Shown here one piece after another: positions 2,949-18,652 of a DNA stretch of 64,000 nt (positions are counted from its first letter, which is position 1; each line of letters opens with the position of its first letter). Under the pieces are notes generated by a model that was not told the DNA's origin, ran no database searches, and saw only the letters and a program-made list of their open reading frames with translations. This DNA is from Kiritimatiellia bacterium (lineage in GTDB: Bacteria; Verrucomicrobiota; Kiritimatiellia; CAIVKH01): NCBI GenBank assembly GCA_025054615.1, contig JANWZO010000002.1, positions 47,786-111,785 on the forward strand. The letters run 5' to 3'. The position numbers were made by a program, and so were the translations under genes.

Positions 2949-4040
2949 ATGAACATGCGGACCGCACATATTGTGTTTATTTGGGCAATGATCGCCCCGT
3001 TTTCGGACGCTGCAGACCCCATCGCCGCTCGATATTGGTCCGAAGCATGGGCAGCCGCCTCTGCGATCACCAACGACGCCCAAGACCAAGCCACATGGCA
3101 GATGCGAGTCTTAGCGGCGGGGTCGGGCCTTGGCCTTCCCGCCGATGAGCTGGAGCAAAAGGCTCGGCAACTCACGGGCTGGTGGAAATGGGGTGCGCTG
3201 GCGGATCTCGCCTTTGACCTTGCCGTGCGCCAACAGACAAATGAAGCGCGGCGCCTTGCGCTGGAAGCCCTCTACAAATCGCCGCTGTTCAGAGAGGACG
3301 AGCACGATCGGATTCTGCTTCGTGCTCTCTGGGCCCTTGCTGCCCTCGGCGACGTGCCGCTGCTCAGCGAATACGAAACCCGTTATGCCGGAGTGGGACG
3401 AACTGCCGCTGAAGTTCGGCGGGCGGCCGCTATCGCAAGTGCGGTACAAGACGGGACGTGGTCTTCTCTGTCCGCCATAGACTCGCTACCGGATGAGCGC
3501 TCCGACGCCGACACTGAATTTCGGCTCCGGCTTGCCCGCCTTGTCGCCGCGCGCTTGAAGGGAGACGAAAGGAACGAATGGGCCGATGCCCTGTGGGCAA
3601 AGACGGCAGATACTTCCGGTTATCGGCGAATTGATGAGCGCCTGGAGCTGATCGACACGTTTGGGGAATTTGTCGGGCCCGAGCGCATGCGCGCATGGCT
3701 GGAGCAGGTCGCCTCCGACATCGCGAATGAGCCGGCTCCGGCCTACGTTCGCGCCCTTCAGTGGGCAGATCTGGCGCACGCGCGCGCCGCGGCAGGCGAC
3801 GTTGCAGGCGCGCGAGCGGCCGCCGGGCATGGCCGGCGGTTGGCGGAACAGTCGGACGGCATTGAACGCCCCGTGATCCTCGGGCGTGTGGCCCGAGCCC
3901 TATCGCGGGCGGGGGATGTTTCGGAGGCCGAGGCGGTTTTTGCCGAGGCGCTGGAGGCCGCGCGCTCGCTGGAGAATCTTCGTCCCCGGAGTATTGCCCT
4001 CGCCCGCATTTATCTGGCACAAGCGGGGGTGATTGAGTAA
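2949..4040 (+). CDS. Exported alpha-helical repeat protein (TPR-like)
   Basis: A 363-residue protein with a short signal peptide (hydrophobic segment about residues 5-20, Ala-Ala-Asp cut) followed by Ala/Arg/Glu-rich helices. Helix pairs such as 'SEAEAVFAEALEAARSLENLRPR' near the C-terminus suggest degenerate TPR or Sel1-like repeats. The ATG at 2949 has GGACAGG just before it. The gene sits between the terminator of the surface protein gene and the TonB-dependent receptor (15-base gap), so it probably works in the periplasm with that receptor. No catalytic motif is visible and I do not recognise a precise family. Confidence 0.6.
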   Translation: MNMRTAHIVFIWAMIAPFSDAADPIAARYWSEAWAAASAITNDAQDQATWQMRVLAAGSGLGLPADELEQKARQLTGWWKWGALADLAFDLAVRQQTNEARRLALEALYKSPLFREDEHDRILLRALWALAALGDVPLLSEYETRYAGVGRTAAEVRRAAAIASAVQDGTWSSLSAIDSLPDERSDADTEFRLRLARLVAARLKGDERNEWADALWAKTADTSGYRRIDERLELIDTFGEFVGPERMRAWLEQVASDIANEPAPAYVRALQWADLAHARAAAGDVAGARAAAGHGRRLAEQSDGIERPVILGRVARALSRAGDVSEAEAVFAEALEAARSLENLRPRSIALARIYLAQAGVIE

Positions 4041-4055
4041 AGACCCTTTCCATTC

Positions 4056-7000
4056 GTGAGGTCATCGGCGCGCATATTGGGGTTGGCGATGGTGATCTGT
4101 TTGACATGGCGCCCGGTAGGCCACGCTCAAGGCGAGCGCGGCGCCCTGCGCGGCCAGGTGATTGACGCCGACTTTGGCGACCCTGTCCAAGGGGCGACGT
4201 TGCGCATTTTGGAACAGGACATCTCTGTGAATTCGGACCGAGAGGGCTTCTTCCTGTTTCCCGATCTGCCGCCAGGCAGCTATTCCGTGGCGGTTACGCG
4301 AGAGGGCTACCAGCGCGCCGTGCTCAGTGGCGTCGTGGTGCCACCGGGCACGGTTGCCGAACTGAATGTCCGACTCTCCTCCGAATTGACCGAAATGGAA
4401 GAGCTCGTGGTCCGTGAGAGCGAGCCGGAGACGGACACCGCCACGGAAGCCGGTCTGCTCACGCTGCGCGCTCAGGCGATCACGTTTCAGGATGCCGTCA
4501 GCCGGGAGCTAATGAGCCGGGCCGGCGCCAGCGACGCCGCGGCAGCAGTTCGACTGGTCGTCGGTACAACGATCGTCGACGGCAAATACGCTTCAGTGCG
4601 CGGCCTCAGCGACCGGTACGTCGGCGCCTCGGTCAATGGGTTTCGAATCCCCAGCGCCGACCCGAAACGCCGAGCCGTGCAACTCGATGTGTTTCCCGCC
4701 GGCACGATCGACAGCATCTCGGTGTCGAAGACCTTTACGCCCGATTTGCCGGGAGACTTCAGCGGCGGGGGAATCAATTTGAAACTGCTGTCCATTCCTG
4801 ACGAGCGGTTTCTCAAATTGAGTTTCAGCCGGGAAATCAACCGTAACTACCACGGTTCGGAACGCTTCATCACCTACGAAGGCGGCGGCGTCGACGTGTG
4901 GGCGCGTCAGCGCGGCGAACGCGACATGCCGGACGGCGCGGCCACGATGGAGGACGATGGACTGCTCGACACTGCGCTGCCCTCCAATCATGAGCAGTTG
5001 CTCGGCGGCGGAGTGGATCATAGTGCACTCTATTTGAGATACGATCGCATCACTCGCAGCATGGCTCCGGCAATGGGCATCAAATACGGACAAATTCCGG
5101 AAAACTTTTCGATTAATGCCTCGATCGGAAACGCGCACCCCCTAATTGGCGACTCGCGTCTTGGTGCGCTGATCGCGTTCACCTACAGTCAGAAGCACTC
5201 CTTGCGCACCAATTTCAACACCGCCTATGTACGTCCGTCTTTGGGGAATCCGCAGGTTACAAATCTGTTCGATACAACCCGTGAGGAGGGCGTTTCGGAG
5301 GTCAAATACGGCTTGCTGATCACCTCGGGCGTCAAGAATCCGGAGCGCAGCGAAATTTCTGTGACATTCTTTCGCGTCCGGTCAGGAACGGACCAGGCAA
5401 GTTTCACCACGGAAGGGTTTGACGATACGACGCTCGAATGGGAGCAGAAGCAGGCCATTCATTACATCGAGCGCAGCACCGACAGCCTTCAATTTCGGGG
5501 CGAGCACAATTTTGACGAAATGATCAACCCCGGGCTTGGCCTCCGCCTTCAGTGGTTCGGCGGCCATAATGTCGTCCGCCAGTACGAGCCGGATGTTCGC
5601 TACTTCGAGAATGTTGTCGTCCGGCAGGGCAATTTATTCCGTTACCAGCAATTGCCCCCTGGAGCCTCCGGGGCGGCGTTTGACAAGACGGCCCGCGTCT
5701 GGCGCGATACGCAAGAAGACAATACGCAGTACGGGCTCAACGTCGCGGTTCCGTTCGACCGCCAGTTCCATCCCCGTAATCCAGATGGCACGCGCGGCGA
5801 CGTGGAAAAATCAGGAGCGCTGAAGTTCGGTTGGGTTCGGGACATAACGCTGCGAACCTACCGGCAAAACTCATTTTTCTACACCTTCGGGGCGCAATTG
5901 GATCCGATTTATACCGGTCCGGTGCGCGCCCAGTTCCCGCCGGGCTTCGCCGGACAAATTGCGTTCATCAATGCCCGAAATGCGTGGCTAGCGTCCTCCA
6001 CGGGCCAGATTTACCTGGCCAAAATGGCGGACGCGGCGGCGGATCGTCTCAAATCCTCGTTTGTCTCGTCATCGCCCACCAGTTTATGGACCGATGTTTT
6101 TCTCAACCCGACCAACATCGGTGTCGGCAGCAAATACAAGGATTCCATGTACTGGTACATCTCGCCGAAACTTTACGACGTCAGTTACGACGGAGACCAA
6201 GATTTCCCCGCCGGTTACGCGATGCTGGAACTGCCGATGAACCACAAGCTCATCGGCCTCATCGGGCTTCGCGCAGAAAATACGCTGATCTCGGTGGATC
6301 CCACCTCGGATATGGACCAACGCGATCCTCCGCGCGCCTTTCAGGTCGCGATTCGTCGCCCCCAAATACTGCCGGACGGCACCGAGACGTACTACTACAC
6401 CATTGGCGGCGTTTCCCGGGAAGAAGCCCGAGTCGACATCGATGAATCCCACCTCCTGCGAGCGGCGGGCCTCGTGTACGAGCCGCGCCCCGACATGAAG
6501 TTGCGATACAATTACGCCCAAACCATCGCGCGGCCGACCTTTTGGGAATTGGCCCCGGTAATCACCTTCGACTACGTGGATGGGATCGCCTATGTCGGCA
6601 ACAAGGACCTCAGGGTGTCCACGGTCGAAAACCACGACATCCGTTGGGAGTGGTACCCCGCGGAAGAAACCGTGGTCTCCGCCAGCGTGTTTGAAAAGCA
6701 AATTGACGATCCGATCGACAAAGAATCCTTTTCCTATCTTAGCCAGGATTACGTTCTCGCGGTGAATTACCCGCACGGCACTGTGCGCGGACTTGAACTG
6801 GAAGTACGCCGGCCTGTCCCGGCGCCGCCCTATCTCCCCGGCCGGCTGATTCTCGGCGCCAACTACACGAAGATCGACGCGTCCGTCGAAATTCCGGATC
6901 AGGTTCGCTACAACCTCGCGCGCCATTCCATTTATATCGATGAGCGCGACATGGAGGGTCAGCCCGATTACCTGCTCAATCTGAACGCGACGTACGAGAT

Positions 7001-7301
7001 TACGCCGCGCGCGTCATTCTCCTATTTCTTCAACAAGCGCGGCGATATGCTAAAAACGGGCGCCGCGGTCGGCGAGGACGGCGCAACTCCAGACATTTAT
7101 TCCCTGGCCCGCGAGACCGTGGACCTCGCGTTCGAGTACAAATTCGGCCGCCAAAAGCAATTCAAGCTGACGCTGCGCGCGAAAAACACCACGGACCCCG
7201 TGATCAAGGAGACCTATCGGCTGCCCGACGGCACGGACATCCCGCGCCGTTCCTATCGCGAGGGTGTGGCATATTCCGTTTCGCTCGGAGGTGAATGGTG
7301 A
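4056..7301 (+). CDS. TonB-dependent receptor, Oar-like with carboxypeptidase regulatory domain
   Basis: A 1081-residue outer-membrane receptor. Order of parts: signal peptide (about 1-25); a carboxypeptidase-regulatory-like domain (about 29-112, 'GALRGQVIDADFGDPVQGATL' style); a possible TonB box near 'EMEELVV'; a plug domain (about 130-260) with 'VDGKYASVRGLSDRYVGASVNG' and 'VFPAGTIDSISVSKTFTPDLPGDFSGG'; then a large beta-barrel ending in an aromatic residue (GEW). The start is a GTG giving the full signal peptide; an ATG at 4089 would cut into it. Its stop overlaps the start of the DUF3450 gene, tying it to the energising operon downstream. These receptors differ from BtuB or FecA types, and their substrates are usually saccharides, peptides or large ligands. 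The ligand here is unknown. Confidence 0.9.
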   Translation: MRSSARILGLAMVICLTWRPVGHAQGERGALRGQVIDADFGDPVQGATLRILEQDISVNSDREGFFLFPDLPPGSYSVAVTREGYQRAVLSGVVVPPGTVAELNVRLSSELTEMEELVVRESEPETDTATEAGLLTLRAQAITFQDAVSRELMSRAGASDAAAAVRLVVGTTIVDGKYASVRGLSDRYVGASVNGFRIPSADPKRRAVQLDVFPAGTIDSISVSKTFTPDLPGDFSGGGINLKLLSIPDERFLKLSFSREINRNYHGSERFITYEGGGVDVWARQRGERDMPDGAATMEDDGLLDTALPSNHEQLLGGGVDHSALYLRYDRITRSMAPAMGIKYGQIPENFSINASIGNAHPLIGDSRLGALIAFTYSQKHSLRTNFNTAYVRPSLGNPQVTNLFDTTREEGVSEVKYGLLITSGVKNPERSEISVTFFRVRSGTDQASFTTEGFDDTTLEWEQKQAIHYIERSTDSLQFRGEHNFDEMINPGLGLRLQWFGGHNVVRQYEPDVRYFENVVVRQGNLFRYQQLPPGASGAAFDKTARVWRDTQEDNTQYGLNVAVPFDRQFHPRNPDGTRGDVEKSGALKFGWVRDITLRTYRQNSFFYTFGAQLDPIYTGPVRAQFPPGFAGQIAFINARNAWLASSTGQIYLAKMADAAADRLKSSFVSSSPTSLWTDVFLNPTNIGVGSKYKDSMYWYISPKLYDVSYDGDQDFPAGYAMLELPMNHKLIGLIGLRAENTLISVDPTSDMDQRDPPRAFQVAIRRPQILPDGTETYYYTIGGVSREEARVDIDESHLLRAAGLVYEPRPDMKLRYNYAQTIARPTFWELAPVITFDYVDGIAYVGNKDLRVSTVENHDIRWEWYPAEETVVSASVFEKQIDDPIDKESFSYLSQDYVLAVNYPHGTVRGLELEVRRPVPAPPYLPGRLILGANYTKIDASVEIPDQVRYNLARHSIYIDERDMEGQPDYLLNLNATYEITPRASFSYFFNKRGDMLKTGAAVGEDGATPDIYSLARETVDLAFEYKFGRQKQFKLTLRAKNTTDPVIKETYRLPDGTDIPRRSYREGVAYSVSLGGEW

Positions 7302-8089
7302 ACCGACCGATTTGTTGCATCATCGCTCTCTTCGCTCTCGGGCTGGCGGCCGCTCCCGGGGTGAGCCGCGCCCAGACGGGCGAACTAGACCGGGCCCAGG
7401 CGATGGAGCGCTGGATCCAGACGCGCCTTTTATTGTCCAAGGAGCGGGAGGAATGGCGCGTGCAGCGAACAATATTGGAAGACCGGATCGATTTGCTGGA
7501 GCGTGAAATCGCTTCGATACGCTCGCGCACCGAGGCCGCAGAGGCGGAACTGGCGAAGACCGAAGATCAGTGGAACGAGTTGAACACTCGGCTGGAGGCC
7601 CTCAAGGAGGCCACGGGCAGCCTCGCGCCCGCGCTCGCCGGCTATGAGGCGCGAGTCCGCGCGATTTTGCCCGCCCTGCCGCCGCCAGTCGCATCCCGCA
7701 TCGAGCCCCTCAGCCGACGGATTCCTGAGAATCCCGACCAGACCAAGCTCGGGATCAGTGAACGATTCCAGAATGTGATCGGCATCCTCAACGAACTTAA
7801 CAAGGCGGCGCGCGAGATCACCGTGGCGGGTGAAGTCCGAGAATTGGAAGACGGCGCGCGCGCCGAGGTCACCGCGATGTACCTCGGCCTGGCGCAGGCG
7901 TTCTACAGTAACGAAAAGGGCGGCATCGGGGGGGTCGGCTATCCGGGGCCACAGGGATGGATATGGCAACCCTGGGATGACCGCGCGGCCGACTTCGCCT
8001 CCGCGTTCGCCATCTACCGGAATGAAAAACCCGCCGCTTATGTGCCGTTGCCGTCGCGGATCGCCAACCGGATGGAGGAGTCGCCGTGA
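7295..8089 (+). CDS. DUF3450 family periplasmic coiled-coil protein
   Basis: A 264-residue exported protein with a signal peptide (about 1-24) and a long coiled coil (about 30-115, Glu/Arg-rich heptads). A globular end follows with 'GGIGGVGYPGPQGW', typical of DUF3450. Proteins of this family are encoded directly upstream of the TtpC-type ExbB gene in TonB2 clusters of Vibrio, Shewanella and Alteromonadales. Here the start overlaps the receptor's stop by 7 bases and the stop overlaps the next start (GTGA), so translation is coupled. The likely role is a periplasmic accessory of the TonB2 complex. This rests on context; no enzyme motif is present. Confidence 0.8.
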   Translation: MVNRPICCIIALFALGLAAAPGVSRAQTGELDRAQAMERWIQTRLLLSKEREEWRVQRTILEDRIDLLEREIASIRSRTEAAEAELAKTEDQWNELNTRLEALKEATGSLAPALAGYEARVRAILPALPPPVASRIEPLSRRIPENPDQTKLGISERFQNVIGILNELNKAAREITVAGEVRELEDGARAEVTAMYLGLAQAFYSNEKGGIGGVGYPGPQGWIWQPWDDRAADFASAFAIYRNEKPAAYVPLPSRIANRMEESP

Positions 8090-9570
8090 AGGCCACATCC
8101 CGATTGATTTTCTCCATCCTCCGCCGGTTTGCCTTCTGTCTGGCATGCCTTGCGTGGCTGGCAACGGTCTCGGCCGTCGCGCAAGAAGATCCGGTACACC
8201 GCGAACTGCAAAAAGCACTCGATCAGCTCGATGCTGAGCGCGCGCGCATCGCGCAGGAAAAGATTCCGCTCGCCGAGCGTGTGTCGGCCCTCGAAGCGAC
8301 GCTGGTTGAGGAACGGCGCCGCATGGAGGAAACCCGGCGCAAGGCCGACAGCCGAAGCCTCGAGTTGAGCAAACTGCGCAACGACATCAAGGCGCGGGAG
8401 CAGGAACAGCAGTACTTGGTCTCTCTGTTCAGCGAATATCTGCGCAACCTCGAGTCGCGCCTTCATATCTCCGAGCTGCAGCTCTACGAGCGAGAGCTGC
8501 GCGACGCGCGCGAGATTCTCGAGCGAGAGGACGCCCCGGCTCCCGAGCGCCTCGCTGCCGCCGCCGGAGCAATATCAAAGAGCCTTAAACGGTTGGAATC
8601 CCTGATTGGCGGCGTTCGGTTCGAGGGGCAGGCGGCGGCCGAGGACGGCCGTCTCCACCGCGGCACCTTTGCGCTCATCGGACCTGTTGCGCTGTTCGCG
8701 GCCGCGGAGAGCGATCTGTGCGGAATCGTCGAACAGCGACTCGGCTCCCTCGAGCCGTCCGTTGCGCCGTTTCAGGATCCCGCGCTGGCCGAAATGACCC
8801 GCCAGCTTTTGCGAGCCGGCGAGGGCGAGATGGCCTTCGACGGAAGCCTCGGCAACGCGCGCAAAATCGAGGCGACGAAGGAGACCCTGTGGGAACACAT
8901 CCAAAAGGGCGGCGTGGTCATGTGGCCGATCTTGACCATGGCGGCGCTAATATTCGGATTTTCCGTATTCAAATGGCTCCGCCTCTCCTTCACGCGGCTG
9001 CCGGATCCACGCAATTTGGATGCGCTTTTCGTCGCTATTCGCGAGGGCCAAGATGACGCGGCGCAGGCCCAGATCAACGGTATGCGCGGTCCTGCGGCCC
9101 GCATGCTGAAAGCCGGATGGTCGCGGCGCGGCCATTCCAAGGACATCATGGAAGAGGCCATGTTCGCCGAGGTCCTCGAGGCGCGGTTTCGGTTGAACAG
9201 CGGGCTGCCCTTCATCGCCGTGGGCGCGGCCACCGCGCCGCTCATGGGGCTTCTCGGCACTGTGACGGGCATCATCGCCACGTTCAAGCTCATCACCGTG
9301 TTTGGATCCGGCGACGTGAAGATGCTGTCGGCTGGCATTTCCGAGGCGCTGATCACGACGGAATTCGGGCTGATCGTCGCGATTCCATCCCTGCTGCTCC
9401 ACGCTTTTCTGTCCCGCAAGGCCCGCTCGATTGTGGAACGGCTCGAACAGATTGCCATCGCATTTCTGGATGCAATGTCCGCGCGATCTGCCTTGCCGAA
9501 CGAAGCGGCATCCGTTTCCAGCGGGCTGGAAAATTCCGGCGAGATCCAGCCGGAGGGCGCCCCGGCATGA
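8086..9570 (+). CDS. TtpC-like long ExbB / MotA-TolQ-ExbB channel protein
   Basis: A 494-residue protein with two parts. The N-terminus has a signal or anchor segment and a coiled-coil periplasmic region (about 35-165). The C-terminus (about 275-465) carries three membrane segments and the MotA/TolQ/ExbB proton channel domain ('PLMGLLGTVTGIIATF', 'GISEALITTEFGLIVAIP'). This architecture matches TtpC of Vibrio TonB2 systems, which is about twice the length of normal ExbB. It starts with GTG overlapping the DUF3450 stop and overlaps the next gene by four bases. It is expected in the inner membrane, helping TonB2 contact the receptor. MotA or TolQ is less likely because of the N-terminal extension and the neighbours. 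Confidence 0.88.
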   Translation: MKATSRLIFSILRRFAFCLACLAWLATVSAVAQEDPVHRELQKALDQLDAERARIAQEKIPLAERVSALEATLVEERRRMEETRRKADSRSLELSKLRNDIKAREQEQQYLVSLFSEYLRNLESRLHISELQLYERELRDAREILEREDAPAPERLAAAAGAISKSLKRLESLIGGVRFEGQAAAEDGRLHRGTFALIGPVALFAAAESDLCGIVEQRLGSLEPSVAPFQDPALAEMTRQLLRAGEGEMAFDGSLGNARKIEATKETLWEHIQKGGVVMWPILTMAALIFGFSVFKWLRLSFTRLPDPRNLDALFVAIREGQDDAAQAQINGMRGPAARMLKAGWSRRGHSKDIMEEAMFAEVLEARFRLNSGLPFIAVGAATAPLMGLLGTVTGIIATFKLITVFGSGDVKMLSAGISEALITTEFGLIVAIPSLLLHAFLSRKARSIVERLEQIAIAFLDAMSARSALPNEAASVSSGLENSGEIQPEGAPA

Positions 9571-10199
9571 GCGAATCCCTAATCAGCTCGCTGGTCAGGG
9601 AAGCCATCCCGATTTGGAAGTCGGGCGGATGGGGAATGTTTGCTCTCGCTGCGGATGCACTGGTTTTGTTCGGGATCGGTTTCCATACCTTGGTGCGTTT
9701 GCTGGAGAAGGGCGCCTTGGCGGATCCCCGTGTGGCATGGGCAAAGTGGAAGCATGACCCCGCCCGAGCGACGGGGCCACTCAGCCGACTTATTCGCGAG
9801 GCGATGTCGCGGCGGAACGAGGAAAGCGTTCAGGCCTTTTTCGCCGAATTGCACCGCGCGGAATTCGCATCGTTTGCCAGCGATCTGAAGGTGATGAACG
9901 TGGCCGTTGCGGCGGCGCCTCTGCTCGGCCTTTTGGGGACCGTCACCGGCATGCTCACCACCTTCAAGGGGCTTGCGGAAGGGGGCGGCGGCGAAAAGAC
10001 CATGTCGGTGATCGCCAGCGGAATTTCGGAGGCGCTGATCACGACGGAAACGGGTCTGGTCATCGGTCTCGGCGGAATGGTCTTCCAGTTCGTGCTGACG
10101 CGCCAACACGAGAAATTCAACAAGATGATCGCCGCGCTGGAGGATAGTTGCCTGCTCGAATGGCGGGCTCGGTCCGACGCCGTACGGAGGGCGGCATGA
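9567..10199 (+). CDS. exbB: ExbB-type TonB energiser subunit (ExbB2)
   Basis: A 210-residue inner-membrane protein with a membrane segment near residues 20-42. The core 'PLLGLLGTVTGMLTTFKGLA' and 'GISEALITTETGLVIGLGGMVFQFVL' covers TM2 and TM3 of the MotA/TolQ/ExbB family. The ATG at 9567 overlaps the end of the TtpC-like gene (ATGA). A longer frame reaches upstream but lies inside the previous gene. With ExbD it forms the proton-driven motor that powers TonB. Having a short ExbB next to a long TtpC-like one is diagnostic of the TonB2 arrangement. Confidence 0.92.
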   Translation: MSESLISSLVREAIPIWKSGGWGMFALAADALVLFGIGFHTLVRLLEKGALADPRVAWAKWKHDPARATGPLSRLIREAMSRRNEESVQAFFAELHRAEFASFASDLKVMNVAVAAAPLLGLLGTVTGMLTTFKGLAEGGGGEKTMSVIASGISEALITTETGLVIGLGGMVFQFVLTRQHEKFNKMIAALEDSCLLEWRARSDAVRRAA

Positions 10200-10612
10200 G
10201 CCGGTTCCGGAACATAGCGGCCGAAGAATCCGCGGAGGCCTCGATCGACATTTCCCCGTTGATCGACTGCATTTTCATCCTCCTGTTGTTTTTTATTGTG
10301 ACGACGACATTTGTCGAAGAAACCGGAGTGGAGGTGGACAAACCGCAGGCGGCCGCATCTGTAAAGCTCGAAAAAAACAGTATTCTGATCGCGATCACGG
10401 CGGAGGGCCAGATTGTCTACGGCGGCCGCGATGTGGGCATCGGCGGCGTCCGCCCGCTGGTCAAACGGCTGCTTGAGAAAGAGGACATGCCGGTGATCAT
10501 ACAGACGGACCAGTCGGTGCCGTCGGGATTGCTGGTTCGGGTCATTGATGAAGCCAAACTCGCGGGGGCGACTCGCGTGAACCTCGCGACAAGGCCGGGA
10601 GGCGCCCGATGA
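10196..10612 (+). CDS. exbD: ExbD-type TonB energiser subunit (ExbD2)
   Basis: A 138-residue protein with one N-terminal membrane helix (about 20-42). The conserved 'IDISPLIDCIFILLLFFIVTTTF' region holds the membrane aspartate of ExbD/TolR that takes part in proton conduction, and a periplasmic domain follows. The ATG at 10196 overlaps the exbB stop (ATGA). Length and topology are normal for ExbD. It should form a complex with the ExbB protein encoded just before it and energise the TonB protein encoded just after it. Confidence 0.93.
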   Translation: MSRFRNIAAEESAEASIDISPLIDCIFILLLFFIVTTTFVEETGVEVDKPQAAASVKLEKNSILIAITAEGQIVYGGRDVGIGGVRPLVKRLLEKEDMPVIIQTDQSVPSGLLVRVIDEAKLAGATRVNLATRPGGAR

Positions 10613-11283
10613 GCAGCCGCCGGTTTGGGTCGGCCCGACGGCCTCTAGTGTCAGCGGCACGCGGCACATTTGTCGCGGTATTGAGCGCGCTGTTCGCCGC
10701 GCTGATGTTCCTGCTCTTGCCCGTGCTGGAGCAGGTGAATCGGATCGGGCGGGAGGAAATGGAAATCCGGTCCGTCGGGACTGCCGATTTGCCGCCGCCT
10801 CCCCCTCCGCCGGAGGAGCCGCCCGAGCAGAAAGAGGAGGAGGAACCGCCGCCGGAGATCGCGGAAGAGGCCCCGCCGCTGGATCTTTCCCAACTTGAGC
10901 TGGCGCTCAATCCCGGTTCGGGCGATGGGTTTGGCGACATGGTGGCGCGTCTGACGCAAATCGACCCCGCTTCAGCGCAGGTTGATGCCGACGCGATCTT
11001 TTCGTCCGCGGATCTCGACCAAATGCCTCGGCCCGTGTTTCAACCGCCCCCGGAGTATCCGGCCGAACTCCGGCGCAAGCGGATCGAAGGCACCGTTTAT
11101 GTCGTGTTTGTCGTGGACAAAAACGGGCGGGTCGTCAATCCCTCCGTTCAAGCCTCGTCCAACCCCGCTTTGGACGCATCCGCGTTGCAAGCCGTACGTC
11201 GCTGGCGGTTTGAGCCCGGGCGGCGGCGCGGCCAGCCCGTCCAGTTCAAAATGAGGGTTCCGATCACATTTGCCGTATCATGA
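10609..11283 (+). CDS. tonB: TonB2-type energy transducer
   Basis: A 224-residue protein with a single membrane segment (about 23-45), a short Pro/Glu-rich periplasmic stretch (about 62-90) and a C-terminal TonB domain (about 140-222). The domain shows 'PPEYPAELRRKRIEGTVYV', 'VVDKNGRVV' and 'ALQAVRRWRFEPG'. The proline-rich spacer is shorter than in E. coli TonB, as is common in TonB2 proteins. It overlaps exbD upstream and the TPR gene downstream by four bases. It transmits motor energy to outer-membrane receptors, most simply the one encoded at 4056-7301. Confidence 0.92.
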   Translation: MSSRRFGSARRPLVSAARGTFVAVLSALFAALMFLLLPVLEQVNRIGREEMEIRSVGTADLPPPPPPPEEPPEQKEEEEPPPEIAEEAPPLDLSQLELALNPGSGDGFGDMVARLTQIDPASAQVDADAIFSSADLDQMPRPVFQPPPEYPAELRRKRIEGTVYVVFVVDKNGRVVNPSVQASSNPALDASALQAVRRWRFEPGRRRGQPVQFKMRVPITFAVS

Positions 11284-12689
11284 GTCCGACATCGAACATT
11301 CGATGGAGCACGACCGCACGCCTGGCGGCATTCGCCCTGGCCGGCTGGCTCGGCGCGCTGCCCGGTCGGGTGACCGCTCAAACGGCCGAGGAACTCCGCC
11401 TCTGGCGCTCCCCTGAATTTCAGCGCGCGTTTCTGGGCACGTATGGTGTGCGCACGGACATCGAGCCGCAACTGACCGAGGCCGAGCGTGCGCTGATGCA
11501 GCAGATCATGGAACTGATGGGCCAGCCGCGCGGGCTCGACAAGGCGCGCGTCGCCATCCTCAAGACCATTACGCCCGCCAGCAGCGCGGCGTTTGACTTC
11601 ACGCTCGGTAATATCTATTTCCAGCAGGACAAACTCGACAAGGCCGCCACCGCGTACCAACGGGCGATTCAAAAATTTCCCGCCTTCCAGCGCGCGTGGA
11701 AAAATCTGGGCATCGTGGAAATCCGCGCGGGTCGGCACGCTGCCGGCCGCGAGGCGCTTGCGCGCGCGATTGAACTCGGCGCGACGGACGGCCTTACGTA
11801 TGGGTTGCTCGGCGTCGCGCTGGCTGCCGAGGATAAATTCATGGCGGCCGAAACCGCTTTTCGCCAGGCCATGCTGTTGCAACCGGACGTGCCGGACTGG
11901 AAGCTTGGCCTCGCCCGCGCGATGTTCCGCCAGAACCGGTTTGGCGAGGTCGCTGCGCTCGCGGATGAGTTGATCGCCAAAAATCCCGAGTCGGCGGATT
12001 TTTATCTTTTGAAAGCGGGTGCACTGCTCGGATTGAAGCAGCCGCTGAAGGCCGCGGAAATTTACGAGTTCCTCGATTTGGACGGCCGTGCCCCGGCGAC
12101 CGCGTTGCAAACGCTGGGCGACATCTACGTCAACGAAGGGGCCTGGGACCTTGCCGCGGGGGCCTACCGGCGTTCGGCTGAAAAGGAAGGTCCGGCCGCG
12201 GCCGAGCGCACGGTGCGGAACGTAGAGGTACTGGCCGCGCGCGGGGCGGCTGACGCAGCCTCCGACCTGATCGCATTCGCGCGAGAGCGGTTTGGCGACG
12301 CGCTTGGCGAGAACGGCCGCATCCGTCTGCTTCGTGTCGAGGCGCGGTTGGCCTCGGGCGAGGGCGGAGAGAACTATCGGCGCATCCTCGAAGAAATTAT
12401 CCGCGTTGACCCGCTCGATGGAGATGCCCTAATTCGGCTGGGCCAACTGGCGGCCAAGGAGGGCCGCCTCGAGCAGGCGGTGCTTTATTTCGAACGCGCT
12501 GCGGCGCTCGATCGGTTCGAGGCCGAGGCGAAGTTGCGCCATGCGCAGGCGCTGGTGCGGAATGGCCGGTTTCAGGAGGCCGTGCCGCTGTTGAAGCGCT
12601 CACAGGAGCTTCGCCCGCGGGAGGATGTGGCGCGGTATTTGGAACAGGTGGAGCGGCTGGCGCGAACGCAAGCCGCCCCCGCAGGATAA
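11280..12689 (+). CDS. TonB2-associated exported TPR protein
   Basis: A 469-residue protein with a signal peptide (about 1-33) and many tetratricopeptide repeats from about residue 95 to the end. Clear examples are 'AAFDFTLGNIYFQQDKLDKAATAYQRAIQ' and 'GDALIRLGQLAAKEGRLEQAVLYFERAAALD' (family recognised by periodicity). TPR proteins close the TtpC-ExbB2-ExbD2-TonB2 operon in Vibrio and relatives, and the ATGA overlap with tonB supports the same role here. It is probably a periplasmic scaffold for the complex. Confidence 0.85.
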   Translation: MSPTSNIRWSTTARLAAFALAGWLGALPGRVTAQTAEELRLWRSPEFQRAFLGTYGVRTDIEPQLTEAERALMQQIMELMGQPRGLDKARVAILKTITPASSAAFDFTLGNIYFQQDKLDKAATAYQRAIQKFPAFQRAWKNLGIVEIRAGRHAAGREALARAIELGATDGLTYGLLGVALAAEDKFMAAETAFRQAMLLQPDVPDWKLGLARAMFRQNRFGEVAALADELIAKNPESADFYLLKAGALLGLKQPLKAAEIYEFLDLDGRAPATALQTLGDIYVNEGAWDLAAGAYRRSAEKEGPAAAERTVRNVEVLAARGAADAASDLIAFARERFGDALGENGRIRLLRVEARLASGEGGENYRRILEEIIRVDPLDGDALIRLGQLAAKEGRLEQAVLYFERAAALDRFEAEAKLRHAQALVRNGRFQEAVPLLKRSQELRPREDVARYLEQVERLARTQAAPAG

Positions 12690-14348: not shown

Positions 14349-14378
14349 TTGACAATTAGTGAGAAGAATCGCTAATCA
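14349..14378 (+). promoter_or_regulatory. Sigma-70-like promoter for the cobalamin riboswitch operon
   Basis: A perfect TTGACA at 14349-14354 is followed after 18 bases by TAATCA (14373-14378), a plausible -35/-10 pair. It lies immediately after the lipoprotein stop and immediately before the riboswitch aptamer, so the leader would begin near 14385. Confidence 0.6.
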
Positions 14379-14384
14379 GTCCTC

Positions 14385-14555
14385 ACCGATTTGTATCGGT
14401 CCCGGGGCCGCAAACGGAAGTCCGTGAAAATCGGACGCGGTCGCGCCGCTGTAACCGGATACAACTTCCGGGGATCCATTCCCGCAATACAACGGGGAGA
14501 AGGCCGGAAGAAGGACTGAAGCCGGAAGCCAGAAGACGAGCGGACCCGTGGGGAG
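14385..14555 (+). promoter_or_regulatory. Cobalamin (vitamin B12) riboswitch
   Basis: The leader contains the conserved boxes of the cobalamin aptamer in the right order. First is 'GGAAGTCCGTGAAAATCGGACGCGG' at about 14414. Then comes 'CGCCGCTGTAACCGG' (the CCACTGT-type core), 'GGGAGAAGGCCGGAAG', and the B12 box 'GAAGCCGGAAGCCAGAAGAC' near 14518-14537. Ends are approximate. Aptamers of this class normally turn off transport or synthesis genes when adenosyl- or methylcobalamin is abundant. A terminator-like hairpin follows at 14605. Confidence 0.92.
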
Positions 14556-14604
14556 CAGGCTCTTCGCGGTTTGAGAGCTGGTTCGCTCGCGTGAGTGATC
14601 TCTC

Positions 14605-14646
14605 ATGCCCGCGTCGTGTCCTGCCGAAACGCGGGCATTCGCTTTT
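14605..14646 (+). terminator. Terminator-like hairpin of the riboswitch expression platform
   Basis: A 9-bp perfect stem (ATGCCCGCG / CGCGGGCAT) with a 16-base loop is followed by TCGCTTTT. It lies between the aptamer and the first gene (start 14715), the position expected for a transcription attenuator controlled by the aptamer. Confidence 0.65.
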
Positions 14647-14714
14647 GTGCCGCTTCGCGGAGGCACAGGGCGAACCCGCACAATGCCCTCGCGTTTGGGG
14701 CGAAAGGAGAGATC

Positions 14715-15338
14715 ATGAAAAACTGGGTTGCAGGCCTCGCGGTTGCTGTCTGGCTGTGCGCCGGACGCGCGCAGGCACTGTTGGTGGACTGGGGCGCCGT
14801 GGATTTCACTCTGGGTTCAGGACCAAACCGGTCCGCCATTGTCATCGATTGGAACGACGGTTCACCAATCGATTACCTGTCGTGGGCGTTCTATTGGGAC
14901 ACTCCGCCCGGGGCCGGTTATCTGGCCGATCTGCTGATCGCCGTGACCAACGCCGATCCACGCCTATCGGCCTTTTTTACGGACTTCGGCATTTGGGGAC
15001 TGTTTGTGGATGGCTTCGGGTTCGATTCAAATCTCGACAGCGATTTCACCGACCCCGGAGAACATTATCAGCACCGTGGAAGCGGATGGAGTCCGACGTT
15101 CGTGATGTGGCAGGGCGACGCGAATGATCCCGCCTGGACTGTCGGTAGCTCTGGAATTTCCAGCACGCCGGTGAGCAACAACCTCGTGTTTGGATTTGTC
15201 TGGAACACGTCGGGCGGATGGCCGGGCGATCCGCCCCCGGTGGTGCCGGAACCGGGATCTTTTGTTTTGGCAGCGGCCGGAGCCGCAGCCCTTCTCGCCG
15301 CTCGGCGAATGTCCCGACGTTCAGGCGCCTCTCATTGA
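14715..15338 (+). CDS. PEP-CTERM surface protein under cobalamin riboswitch
   Basis: A 207-residue exported protein. The ATG at 14715 follows AAGGAGAG. A signal peptide (cut after Ala-Gln-Ala, about residue 20) leads a domain with 'GSGPNRSAIVIDWNDG', 'AFYWD' and 'TNADPRLSAFF'. The C-terminus is a textbook PEP-CTERM sorting signal: VPEPGS, a hydrophobic stretch, then ArgArg-Met-Ser-ArgArg (about 180-205). Such proteins are processed by an exosortase, which is not in this window. The N-terminal domain is repeated in the next gene. From memory, similar 'VVDWNDG ... WGYRWDG' domains occur in surface proteins of B12-regulated operons in Bacteroidota and Planctomycetota. A corrinoid-capture role is inferred, not shown. 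Confidence 0.82.
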   Translation: MKNWVAGLAVAVWLCAGRAQALLVDWGAVDFTLGSGPNRSAIVIDWNDGSPIDYLSWAFYWDTPPGAGYLADLLIAVTNADPRLSAFFTDFGIWGLFVDGFGFDSNLDSDFTDPGEHYQHRGSGWSPTFVMWQGDANDPAWTVGSSGISSTPVSNNLVFGFVWNTSGGWPGDPPPVVPEPGSFVLAAAGAAALLAARRMSRRSGASH

Positions 15339-15390
15339 GCCGTTCCTGAAACTCCTCTTGCTGATGTTTTGGAGCGATCCGGCCAGGCTC

Positions 15391-17112
15391 ATGCGGATTG
15401 CGTTTGCTTTGGCGATCGTGGTCCTGTCAAACGGATCGGCGGCCGCTTTCGATTTCGCACGCATTGAGCGCTGGACCGGATCGGGTACGAACCGATCGGC
15501 ATTGGTTGTGGACTGGAATCATGGGCGGAACCCCCACGCACTCGCGTGGGGGTTCCGCTGGGACGGGTTCGCCACTACGTACGATCTGTTGCGGGCCATC
15601 ACGAACAACGATCCGGGGCTTTCCATCGAATGGACGAACACCTCCGCCGGGCTTCGCGTCGCTCACATGGTCTATCGCCGCCCTTCCGCTCATGGCGTGA
15701 CTCTCCCGCATTCCCAATCCGAAACGACGTTGATGACGCCGTATGGACGAGATTTCACCAGTATGGTTTTTCAAACGGGAACCTGGACGCACTGGACGTG
15801 CGATGGCGGCATGGCCGTTGTGCCGTCGAACTGTCTTCTGTTTTCGTCAGGCGTCGTGCATCGCTTGTTGGAGCCGGGCAGTTGGGATGTATTCTCGTTT
15901 TCCACCTCGAGCCTTCCGATTCCTCCAAACCGTGCTATTGCGCCGGCTCCTCATTACCCATTCGCAAGCGAAGTCATCAGCTATTGGTACGGGAGTGGCT
16001 CGCCGCCGATCGATTGGCTCAGCGGCGAACCATTCACGAATGCAGCCGCCGCGCTGGGCCGCCCGACAGTGGACACGACATTCCAATCCACAAATGCGCC
16101 GGTCGTTCCGGTTGCGGCCGCGTTCCGCGCGCACGAAGTCGTGAGCCTCGGATCGGGCGGATATATCGAGTTGGCTTTTGACCACCGCGTCTTGGACCAC
16201 CCCGACAATCCTTACGGCCTCGATTTCATCGTGTTCGGCAATAGCTTTCAGTCGATCGCCGGCGGCGCCGCTTGGACCAACGGCGATCCGGCCGCAACGG
16301 TTCTCGGCCACTCCTGCTTCGTTGAAAAGGGTCGAGTCTATGTCAGCCAGGATGCCATCACATGGCATGCATTTACCAACGGGCCGTTTGCGGACGATTT
16401 TGCCCCAACGTTGGGCCGCGTCTTCGATACGAATCACTATGACACCAGCCTTGGCCCGTGGAACCAATGGTGGGGCGGCGCAACGGATCCGACCCTTCCC
16501 ATCGACCCTTCGCTTGCTCCATCGAATTGGGCGGGATTCTCGGTCGCGGCAATTGCGCAACGTTATCGCGGCGGGGCGGGAGGAACAGGTTTCGATATTT
16601 CGACGCTGCCCCTCCAGCCCGATGAAACCACCGGTCTCAAATGGATCCGTTATGTGCGGATCGAGCGCGCCGGCTCGCTCAATCCGGAGATTGATGCCAT
16701 TGCCGATGTCTCGCCGCTGCTGCCGCACGCCCGATGGACGCTGGAGGCCTTCCCGTGGCTGGCCGCCCCCTCCGAGAAAGCCGACGGGTCGGATCCTGAT
16801 GTCGATGGTACGCCCAATTTGCTTGAATACGCGACGGGCCAAAATCCGATGGTGGCGGAGCTGCCCCCACTCATCCAGCTGGGTGTGGCCGCGAGCCATA
16901 TTCGCGTTCGCTACTGGAAGGCTGAGGACGCATCGGACGTCCGCGTGGAAGTCGAGAGCGCGGTGTCGCCGGATGCGGTCTGGCAAACGAACGGCATTTC
17001 ACAGGCGGTGGAAATCGGCGCGCCGTCGAACGGGTTGAGGGCGGTTGATGCGGAGCAGCCCCTGTCCGATAATGCACGATTTTTCCGCCTGCGCGTTCGG
17101 CATGAGGACTGA
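15391..17112 (+). CDS. Large exported surface protein sharing the riboswitch-operon domain
   Basis: A 573-residue protein. The ATG at 15391 gives a classical signal peptide (cut near Ser-Ala-Ala-Ala, residue 19); an in-frame ATG at 15364 is the alternative, and neither has a strong ribosome site. Residues about 20-110 repeat the previous gene's domain ('GSGTNRSALVVDWNHG', 'AWGFRWDG', 'TNNDPGLSIEW'). The middle (about 190-450) is a beta-rich domain with 'LDFIVFGNSF', 'VSQDAITWHAF' and 'WIRYVRIERAG', like surface proteins in B12 operons of other phyla. The end carries an NLLEYATG linker (about 475) and a module ending FFRLRV. It has no PEP-CTERM tail, so it may be released or held by a partner. 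It lies 52 bases after the first gene and overlaps the next. Confidence 0.75.
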   Translation: MRIAFALAIVVLSNGSAAAFDFARIERWTGSGTNRSALVVDWNHGRNPHALAWGFRWDGFATTYDLLRAITNNDPGLSIEWTNTSAGLRVAHMVYRRPSAHGVTLPHSQSETTLMTPYGRDFTSMVFQTGTWTHWTCDGGMAVVPSNCLLFSSGVVHRLLEPGSWDVFSFSTSSLPIPPNRAIAPAPHYPFASEVISYWYGSGSPPIDWLSGEPFTNAAAALGRPTVDTTFQSTNAPVVPVAAAFRAHEVVSLGSGGYIELAFDHRVLDHPDNPYGLDFIVFGNSFQSIAGGAAWTNGDPAATVLGHSCFVEKGRVYVSQDAITWHAFTNGPFADDFAPTLGRVFDTNHYDTSLGPWNQWWGGATDPTLPIDPSLAPSNWAGFSVAAIAQRYRGGAGGTGFDISTLPLQPDETTGLKWIRYVRIERAGSLNPEIDAIADVSPLLPHARWTLEAFPWLAAPSEKADGSDPDVDGTPNLLEYATGQNPMVAELPPLIQLGVAASHIRVRYWKAEDASDVRVEVESAVSPDAVWQTNGISQAVEIGAPSNGLRAVDAEQPLSDNARFFRLRVRHED

Positions 17113-17827
17113 GCGCTCCATCGCTCAAGCTGCCTTTACGCTCGTGGAGCTGCTGGTCGTTTCGGCTACAATAGGCCTTTTGGCGCTGGTTATGGCGACC
17201 GCGCTCTCGAATGCGATCGAAGCGGGACGAGATATGCGCTGCCGGAGCCAATTGCGGCAGATGGCCTTCGGCGCATTGCTCCGCGCCGAACTTGACGGAG
17301 GACTGCTGCCCGCCAGCTATGAACGGGACGTTTTGACCGGCGCCACGCGCACCTGGGAATGGGTTCTGTGGCATCTGGGGACGGAGTATCAGGTTCAGCA
17401 ATGCCCGTCATTCCGCGGCGCGGCTATGTGGGACGGAGACAAATTCACCGGCTACAACTACAATTCGAGCTACCTTGGCGGCCGCATCCTGCGGCGAGGG
17501 GGAGTTCTCCTCGCGGCGTCCTTGACGTCAGCTCGGATTGGCGACATTCGGAATCCATCGGAATGCGCGATGTTTGGCGACGGCGAGTATGAAAACGGCG
17601 CCAACAAATTCATGCGATCGCCGTTTCCGGGGCCCCTTGATCCCGACGCGTCACTGGCGTTGGGGGGCACTCAGGGCTTTCGGCATCGCGGACGAACCAA
17701 CGTGGCGTTCGCGGATGGCCATGTGGAATCCCGATCGAACCGGTATACGACCACGGCGGCGCCGGGCTCGCCGGCGCCGCAATGCGGTTTTTTGTCGCCC
17801 GACAACCGGCTATATGATTTGGAATAA
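17102..17827 (+). CDS. Pseudopilin-like protein with H-x9-DG signature
   Basis: A 241-residue protein starting at the ATG at 17102, inside the end of the previous gene (11-base overlap). It has a type IV prepilin cleavage/methylation N-terminus (FTLVELLVVSATIGLLALV, about residues 12-30), where a PilD-type peptidase cuts before Phe. The C-terminal signature 'FRHRGRTNVAFADGHV' is the H-x9-DG motif of many orphan pseudopilin-like proteins in Planctomycetota and Verrucomicrobiota. No secretion ATPase is nearby. Its place inside the riboswitch operon suggests co-regulation with the surface proteins. Confidence 0.85.
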   Translation: MRTERSIAQAAFTLVELLVVSATIGLLALVMATALSNAIEAGRDMRCRSQLRQMAFGALLRAELDGGLLPASYERDVLTGATRTWEWVLWHLGTEYQVQQCPSFRGAAMWDGDKFTGYNYNSSYLGGRILRRGGVLLAASLTSARIGDIRNPSECAMFGDGEYENGANKFMRSPFPGPLDPDASLALGGTQGFRHRGRTNVAFADGHVESRSNRYTTTAAPGSPAPQCGFLSPDNRLYDLE

Positions 17828-17849
17828 ATCGGAACAAGGAGACATTAAG

Positions 17850-18386
17850 GTGAGAGAATCCCCGTTCAATACTGCTCGGTTTGCCGCGCTGGTCGGCATG
17901 ATTGCGGCCGCTGCCGCGTTTCGGATTCTTCCGCATCCGCCGAATTTTACACCGATCGCCGCGATGGCGCTGTTTGGTGGAGCCCAATTCGCCGACCGGC
18001 GCACGGCCTTTGCCGTGCCCCTCGCGGCCATGTTGTTGTCGGATCTTGCGCTGGGGTTCCACGCGCTTATGCCGGTGATCTATGGCGCTTTCGCCCTGAT
18101 CGTGTGCATCGGGATCTGGCTCCGCCCACGGCGTTCACCGGCAATGATCGCAGCGGCGACCCTCGCTTCATCGGTCCTGTTCTTCGCCATCACCAACTTC
18201 GCGGTATGGGTATCCGGCACCCTGTATCCGAAGACAATCGCCGGCCTCGCCCAGTGTTACGTTGCCGCGATTCCGTTCTTCGGCAATACCGTCCTCGGCG
18301 ATGCTATCTTTTCGGCGGCTCTCTTCGGCGGACTCGCCTTGGCGGAGTGGCGGGTCCCGCGCCTGCGTGAAGCCTGCGCGACATGA
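17850..18386 (+). CDS. DUF6580 membrane protein, candidate ECF-type S component
   Basis: A 178-residue protein with about five membrane helices. A GTG start at 17850 is chosen because AAGGAG lies nine bases upstream and no suitable ATG exists. The N-terminal 'FRILPHPPNFTPIAAMALFGGAQF' and later 'GLAQCYVAAIPFFGNTVLGD' are typical of DUF6580, a family resembling the substrate-binding S components of ECF transporters. Here it is the membrane gene of a cobalamin-riboswitch operon, so inner-membrane uptake of corrinoid or a B12 precursor is the best guess. No EcfA or EcfT genes are in the window. It overlaps the CWC gene by four bases. Confidence 0.8.
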   Translation: MRESPFNTARFAALVGMIAAAAAFRILPHPPNFTPIAAMALFGGAQFADRRTAFAVPLAAMLLSDLALGFHALMPVIYGAFALIVCIGIWLRPRRSPAMIAAATLASSVLFFAITNFAVWVSGTLYPKTIAGLAQCYVAAIPFFGNTVLGDAIFSAALFGGLALAEWRVPRLREACAT

Positions 18387-18652
18387 GCTCCGACGTCGAC
18401 CCGGCCCGTTGCCCTCTCTGCGGGGGTCCGAACCACTGTGCGATGGCAAACGGCTTTCCCGTGACCTCATGCTGGTGCGCGGAGGAATACATCCCACCCG
18501 CTCTCTTGGCGCGGGTTCCCGCCCGCGCGTACGGCCGCGCCTGCATCTGCCGTGCATGCCTGGCCTCACACACGAATCTTGAAGGCCAGTCACTGCACAG
18601 GTTTTCGCCCGCTTGTGGCGGTTCTGCAAGCGGTGTGCCGGGCTCCGCCTAA
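18383..18652 (+). CDS. Cysteine-rich CWC family protein
   Basis: An 89-residue protein that starts in the previous stop (ATGA overlap). It shows the CWC-type pattern: CPLCGGPNHC near the start, 'CWC' at about residue 31, and 'CICRAC' near residue 52. These cysteines suggest a small metal-binding (probably zinc) protein. The function of the family is not known to me. Being the last gene of the riboswitch operon, it may act with the DUF6580 protein. Confidence 0.75.
   Translation: MSSDVDPARCPLCGGPNHCAMANGFPVTSCWCAEEYIPPALLARVPARAYGRACICRACLASHTNLEGQSLHRFSPACGGSASGVPGSA

Follow-up and report, generated by a model that had tools for sequence, protein, structure and literature searches.

A cobalamin riboswitch-controlled cassette of surface proteins and a pseudopilin points to an undescribed way of scavenging vitamin B12

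Introduction

What does a cobalamin riboswitch control when no classical vitamin B12 gene lies behind it? The question is raised by a locus of a Kiritimatiellia bacterium, located within a stretch of 64,000 nucleotides that we analysed as a whole and refer to as the window. Cobalamin riboswitches are established as a class that allows expression at low cobalamin, and surface scavenging of cobamides has been described in detail for Bacteroides. The initial annotation of this locus proposed that its surface proteins capture corrinoid, which an ECF-like component then takes up. Here, we describe the locus, its recurrence in other genomes and the readings that compete to explain it.

Results

The riboswitch and its operon

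The window holds a single cobalamin riboswitch, which Infernal cmscan places at 14374-14559 on the forward strand. The match to RF00174 is full length (model positions 1-189) and scores 73.6 bits (E 2.9e-16) against a gathering threshold of 31.5, bearing out the aptamer that the initial annotation had read in the leader. Downstream, five co-directional and nearly contiguous ORFs extend to 18652; no gap between them exceeds about 25 bp, and two neighbouring pairs overlap. The features are:

14374..14559, + strand: cobalamin riboswitch aptamer (RF00174; Infernal cmscan)
14560..14714, + strand: candidate expression platform, with a hairpin at about 14605-14637 and a long-range helix (RNA fold z -2.0; weak in a terminator scan)
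14715..15338, + strand: p1, secreted PEP-CTERM protein with the cassette N-domain (PF07589, 22.0 bits; N-domain)
15364..17112, + strand: p2, secreted protein with an N-domain, a BtuH-type middle domain and an Ig-like C-terminal domain (hhalign, BLASTP, structure model)
17102..17827, + strand: p3, dedicated cassette pseudopilin (TIGR04294, 22.7 bits; 28-sequence alignment)
17850..18386, + strand: p4, DUF6580 membrane protein, candidate inner-membrane corrinoid transporter (PF20221, 194 bits)
18383..18652, + strand: p5, Cys-rich CWC protein (Cys_rich_CWC, PF14375, 54 bits)

Two further elements claimed for the leader fared less well. No promoter passes a sigma-70 scan, though an exact TTGACA is present, and the terminator-like hairpin corresponds to a site that exists but is weak and near the chance level (two sites were found, with 0.7 expected by chance). 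RNA folding gives a long-range helix in which TGATCTCTC, at about 14590-14600, pairs with GAGAGATCA, the Shine-Dalgarno region directly 5' of the p1 start codon. Because this helix, with a fold z of -2.0, masks the p1 ribosome-binding site that GAGAGATCA overlaps, translational control seems likelier than termination, and the pairing suggests itself as a better candidate for the expression platform than the terminator-like hairpin.

As the initial annotation had stated, Pfam and NCBIfam identify no BtuB, BtuCDF or synthesis enzyme among p1-p5. Its calls of a pseudopilin-like gene, a DUF6580 membrane protein and a CWC protein also held: p3 combines a prepilin N-terminus with an H-X9-DG domain that exceeds the TIGR04294 cut-off of 19 (its N_methyl match, at 18.0 bits, lies under the cut-off of 21.2), and p4 and p5 match their families as listed above. 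Both surface proteins had been described as PEP-CTERM proteins, which applies to p1 (the C-terminal signal exceeds the PF07589 cut-off of 20.7) and not to p2, which carries no such signal and belongs to no family in Pfam or NCBIfam. The p1 protein is probably exosortase-anchored. The two proteins have in common an N-domain (42% identity), whose cassette motif GSGxNRxAxVIDWNDG is present in p1; a probe like that used below for BtuH retrieved no PDB relative of this domain.

A BtuH-related domain in p2

The p2 protein has 582 residues if translation begins at 15364, or 573 if it begins at 15391, and its middle domain covers about residues 188-452 of the shorter form. Sequence searches of the PDB with p2, with the surface protein of a relative, with a BtuH-like profile and with a 38-sequence profile retrieved no relative. 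We compared p2 directly with BtuH2 (BT_1956; PDB 7BIZ), which binds B12 at the surface of Bacteroides and whose structure in complex with the vitamin has been solved (PMC8941943). Fragments of BtuH2 and of 8BLW_B were drawn from the PDB by an approximate probe modelled on Bacteroides surface proteins, and the comparison covers the residues of these fragments, about 58 columns of the domain. Over these 58 columns, the p2 family profile aligned with the BtuH2/8BLW fragments at an hhalign probability of 95.8 and 40% identity, while two unrelated profiles used as negative controls reached 0.3 and 1.2. The window p2 itself matched the BtuH2 fragment in BLASTP with an E-value of 6e-7 (a single comparison) and 45% identity over 51 residues.

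In BtuH2, Asn399 contacts the phosphate of B12 and Phe401 the lower ligand (PMC8941943); the corrin contacts of the family are Tyr510, Trp511, Trp577 and His476. The GNAF of the BtuH2 fragment matches the published Asn399-x-Phe401 spacing, which fixes the numbering, and p2 has GNSF at this position. The equivalent Asn is encoded at 16240-16242 and is kept in 36 of 38 sequences. A predicted structure of p2 (pLDDT 85) returned no BtuH among the best 50 Foldseek matches for the whole three-domain model; Ig-like matches were found for the C-terminal domain alone, none of them confident. The signal sequence, MRIAFALAIVVLSNGSAAA, lacks a lipobox Cys, and p2 is thus not a surface lipoprotein of the kind that defines the BtuH family. 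Given a BtuH-related domain in a protein that is not a lipoprotein, we regard p2 as a BtuH variant. By sequence, its middle domain is related to BtuH over the compared fragment, and p2 may well bind corrinoid. Both p1 and p2 are likely to be located at the cell surface.

Recurrence of the cassette

RF00174 was found in all eight genomes of the order to which the window genome belongs. In each of the seven relatives (L012-L018, from G001-G007), a single riboswitch precedes one or more surface protein genes and then a pseudopilin gene, and the cassette is followed, in fixed order, by a small PurA-like gene (PF04845 in L016), a sigma factor gene and a putative anti-sigma gene. The window genome has no such tail and carries another cassette subtype than its relatives, a pattern that would fit a swap of the cassette. 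At two of the relatives' loci (L013 in G005 and L014 in G004), the surface proteins under riboswitch control bear no relation to the BtuH type but retain the pilin neighbour; neither genome has a Plug-domain receptor.

Across 338 genomes searched in the phylum, p2 homologues or the N-domain turned up in other families as well. Among the 28 genomes with either that were examined, 24 contain RF00174, mostly with the homologue directly downstream, and p2 homologues usually stand at the sole B12 riboswitch of their genome. A scan of a public genome collection found 267 relatives, from which 80 loci were kept, mainly from Kiritimatiellia and from two planctomycete groups, Phycisphaerae and Sedimentisphaerales. 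A covariance model trained on 21 riboswitches collected in this analysis (that of L001 being left out) detected a B12 riboswitch upstream on the coding strand at 59 of the 80 loci (E<1e-3) and on the opposite strand at none; about a dozen of these loci are contigs already present in the phylum search and are thus not independent of the model. Where more than 700 bp of upstream sequence was available, the count was 55 of 68. Rfam's own model confirmed 9 of 11 other loci checked, at 70-127 bits. At L145, from a genome labelled Lentisphaerae, two cobalamin riboswitches stand in tandem ahead of the cassette (3242-3386 and 3547-3693).

Profile searches of the 80 loci gave a common order: an N-domain protein, either separate or fused to the next, then a BtuH-type protein, then a pseudopilin. 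A PEP-CTERM-like motif ends 21 of the 29 separate N-domain proteins. The pseudopilin is present at 70 loci, and several of the ten exceptions reach contig ends. BtuC/BtuD/BtuF-like genes lie 3' of the cassette in about nine loci; L055, for instance, has a fused ABC_tran and FecCD (BtuDC) protein and a Peripla_BP_2 (BtuF-like) protein by Pfam. Another genome, G139, pairs a TonB receptor with a BtuH-like protein and an N-domain protein with a BtuF-like one. The expectation that the families of the operon recur behind B12 riboswitches was strongly borne out for the pseudopilin and both surface proteins; DUF6580, and probably the CWC gene with it, belongs to the window genome's version of the cassette, outside the conserved core. 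We also considered that the operon might be a peculiarity of this genome, which its recurrence in relatives, in genomes across the phylum and at the 80 loci rules out.

A dedicated pseudopilin

No other part of the cassette is as conserved as the pseudopilin, which has 37 invariant columns in a 28-sequence alignment covering at least two phyla. Its motifs include QCPSF, TGYNYN, FGDGEY..GANKFMRSP and a C-terminal GF[LI]SxDNxxYDL. Although H-X9-DG-like pilins are abundant in cassette genomes, the p3 family profile separates this one clearly: within the window genome p3 scores 292 bits and other pilins at most 71, and in genomes with this cassette type p3-type proteins reach up to 355 bits and the other pilins about 77, mostly over the N-terminus alone. 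Among the genomes tested, the dedicated C-terminal domain occurs at full length solely in the B12 cassette. The pilins of propeller-type cassettes form a second subfamily. G188, which has two riboswitches with a cassette at each, contains both cassette types and both pilins, which suggests that surface proteins and pilins form matched pairs. Of all the partners in the cassette, the pseudopilin is the most constant, and it is no bystander. Since a Foldseek search with the pilin model found no solved fold resembling its C-terminal domain, the part that it would play in B12 handling is argued from synteny and conservation.

The outer membrane and the hand-over of corrinoid

The window genome encodes two Plug-domain proteins. 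One is a CarboxypepD_reg TonB-dependent receptor upstream of the operon, in a gene set at 4056-12689 that also includes DUF3450, ExbB, ExbD, TonB and a TPR protein. The other is a receptor of 697 aa encoded on another contig near metH, and its plug resembles those of PhuR, Cir and BtuB. This receptor could be a BtuB, in which case passage through the outer membrane may follow the classical route.

In the closest competitor to our own reading, the surface proteins would pass corrinoid to an ordinary TonB-dependent BtuB encoded elsewhere, and the pseudopilin would merely aid their secretion or anchoring through type II secretion or type IV pilus machinery, taking no direct part in the handling of B12. 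Bacteroides BtuG and BtuH do act with BtuB (PMC10404256, PMC8941943), and a Plug-domain protein is found in 19 of the 27 cassette genomes. In two genomes, G307 and G232, a second riboswitch stands in front of a TonB receptor; in G232 that receptor (L100, 5787-7790) lies beside genes resembling the Rnf complex. Secretins, moreover, were present in 11 of 11 genomes tested. However, the remaining 8 cassette genomes have no Plug match, and three of these are at least 97% complete. Conservation of the pseudopilin's C-terminal domain also far exceeds that of the surface proteins and is higher than a generic secretion helper would need. We give this explanation a real chance, if somewhat less than an even one.

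A bolder proposal is that the dedicated pseudopilin forms a short fibre, or sits on one, and with BtuH-type binders carries corrinoid over the outer membrane, replacing TonB and BtuB in lineages where the receptor is missing, with DUF6580 as a new type of inner-membrane cobalamin transporter. We consider such pseudopilus-based uptake rather unlikely.

DUF6580

Several observations connect DUF6580 with cobalamin. In G317, from another family, an AdoCbl-II riboswitch (RF01689, 40.4 bits) is followed by an N-domain protein, a pilin-like ORF and DUF6580, the same order of surface protein, pilin and DUF6580 as in the window, and in three other genomes DUF6580 adjoins a PF01923 cobalamin adenosyltransferase gene. 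The window genome has no FecCD (BtuC-type) match, alone among the eight genomes of its order, so DUF6580 may replace a BtuC-type permease; as the genome is 95% complete, a BtuCDF set could also be absent merely from the assembly. The label of an ECF S-component, and with it the ECF-like uptake of the initial annotation, found no support: a profile of 12 DUF6580 sequences found no S-component in the PDB, and the operon has no ATPase partner for the protein. DUF6580 is thus cobalamin-linked and a fair candidate for a transporter, which would act as an inner-membrane importer.

Alternatively, the riboswitch could govern p1-p3 only, with p4 and p5 separate genes that follow by chance. DUF6580 was found in the window genome alone among the 27 cassette genomes tested, and most other DUF6580 loci have no B12 riboswitch nearby, as this explanation would predict. 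Against it stand the 22-bp gap between p3 and p4, the 4-bp overlap of the p5 start with the p4 stop, the same order behind the AdoCbl-II riboswitch of G317 and the three adenosyltransferase loci. We regard it as unlikely.

The second riboswitch and B12 use

The window genome has two RF00174 riboswitches, one at the operon and one (within L019, 4000-14001) before the small and large subunit genes of a class I ribonucleotide reductase. The latter is an ordinary B12-sparing arrangement. MetH is also encoded, showing that B12 is used. That the operon likewise substitutes a B12-dependent function when the vitamin is short, with no bearing on corrinoid uptake, would parallel the control of the B12-independent reductase, and is very unlikely given the BtuH-type domain with its conserved contact Asn, the BtuF/BtuC/BtuD and TonB receptor neighbours at many loci and a cassette that holds no enzyme.

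Discussion

We think it likely that the locus is a B12-repressed operon for scavenging corrinoids, in which a pseudopilin-linked capture module forms a variant of BtuH-type scavenging. The idea first proposed, that surface proteins controlled by a B12 riboswitch capture corrinoid, gains support from the recurrence of the families and from the BtuH-type domain that comparison of sequences places in p2. In this model, the riboswitch would permit expression of the operon when cobalamin is scarce, and p1 and p2 would bind corrinoid on the outer membrane or beyond it, as suggested by homology and one conserved contact residue. The pseudopilin would work with these binders in one of two ways: it could be a short fibre or piston at the surface, displaying a binder or handing it over, or a subunit that itself contacts corrinoid. 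In the window genome, DUF6580 would then move corrinoid over the inner membrane instead of BtuCDF; in other lineages the BtuF, BtuC and BtuD genes found after the cassette could supply this step. The vitamin would serve MetH and spare the B12-independent class I ribonucleotide reductase.

The literature that we searched, from which most subscription journals are absent, contained no mention of DUF6580 and none of BtuH together with planctomycetes. Judged by title or abstract and within the same coverage, the few papers that join riboswitch, pseudopilin and cobalamin, or cobalamin riboswitch and PEP-CTERM, concern other subjects. The cassette offers functional hypotheses for the N-domain, cassette pseudopilin and DUF6580 families, and makes testable how B12 passes the outer membrane in B12-dependent bacteria without TonB receptors.

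Among known systems, BtuH is the nearest. Similar to BtuH, p2 is a secreted protein of a cobalamin-riboswitch locus, with a homologous stretch of the B12-binding domain and the equivalent of Asn399. It differs in the missing lipobox and in an N-domain in place of PKD domains, none of which were found, and its operon has a pseudopilin partner and no btuB and occurs in other phyla. BtuGH (BT_1490) combines a beta-propeller with a BtuH domain (PMC8941943). In three relatives of the window genome (G002, G003 and G006), the riboswitch is likewise followed by a fusion of a propeller-like N-terminal half with a BtuH-related domain, whereas the window proteins have no propeller and their cassette is of the other subtype. 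BtuJ/DUF4465 proteins are secreted or surface B12 binders of riboswitch loci, also outside Bacteroides, for example in Coraliomargarita (PMC12751083, PMC13398666); p1 and p2 resemble them in being secreted or surface proteins of such loci, but neither these two nor 37 p2 homologues have a DUF4465 Pfam match.

At the inner membrane, DUF6580 would take the same step as the BtuFCD and ECF cobalamin transporters, corrinoid import; unlike these, it has no ATPase partner encoded alongside, and its sequence shows no relation to S-components. The pseudopilin shares its prepilin N-terminus and H-X9-DG motif with the H-X9-DG/DUF1559 pseudopilins and differs by its dedicated C-terminal domain with invariant motifs of its own. 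We know of no described B12 system with a dedicated pseudopilin. The cassette would represent a second, widespread architecture for scavenging at the cell surface, found in Kiritimatiellia and Planctomycetota.
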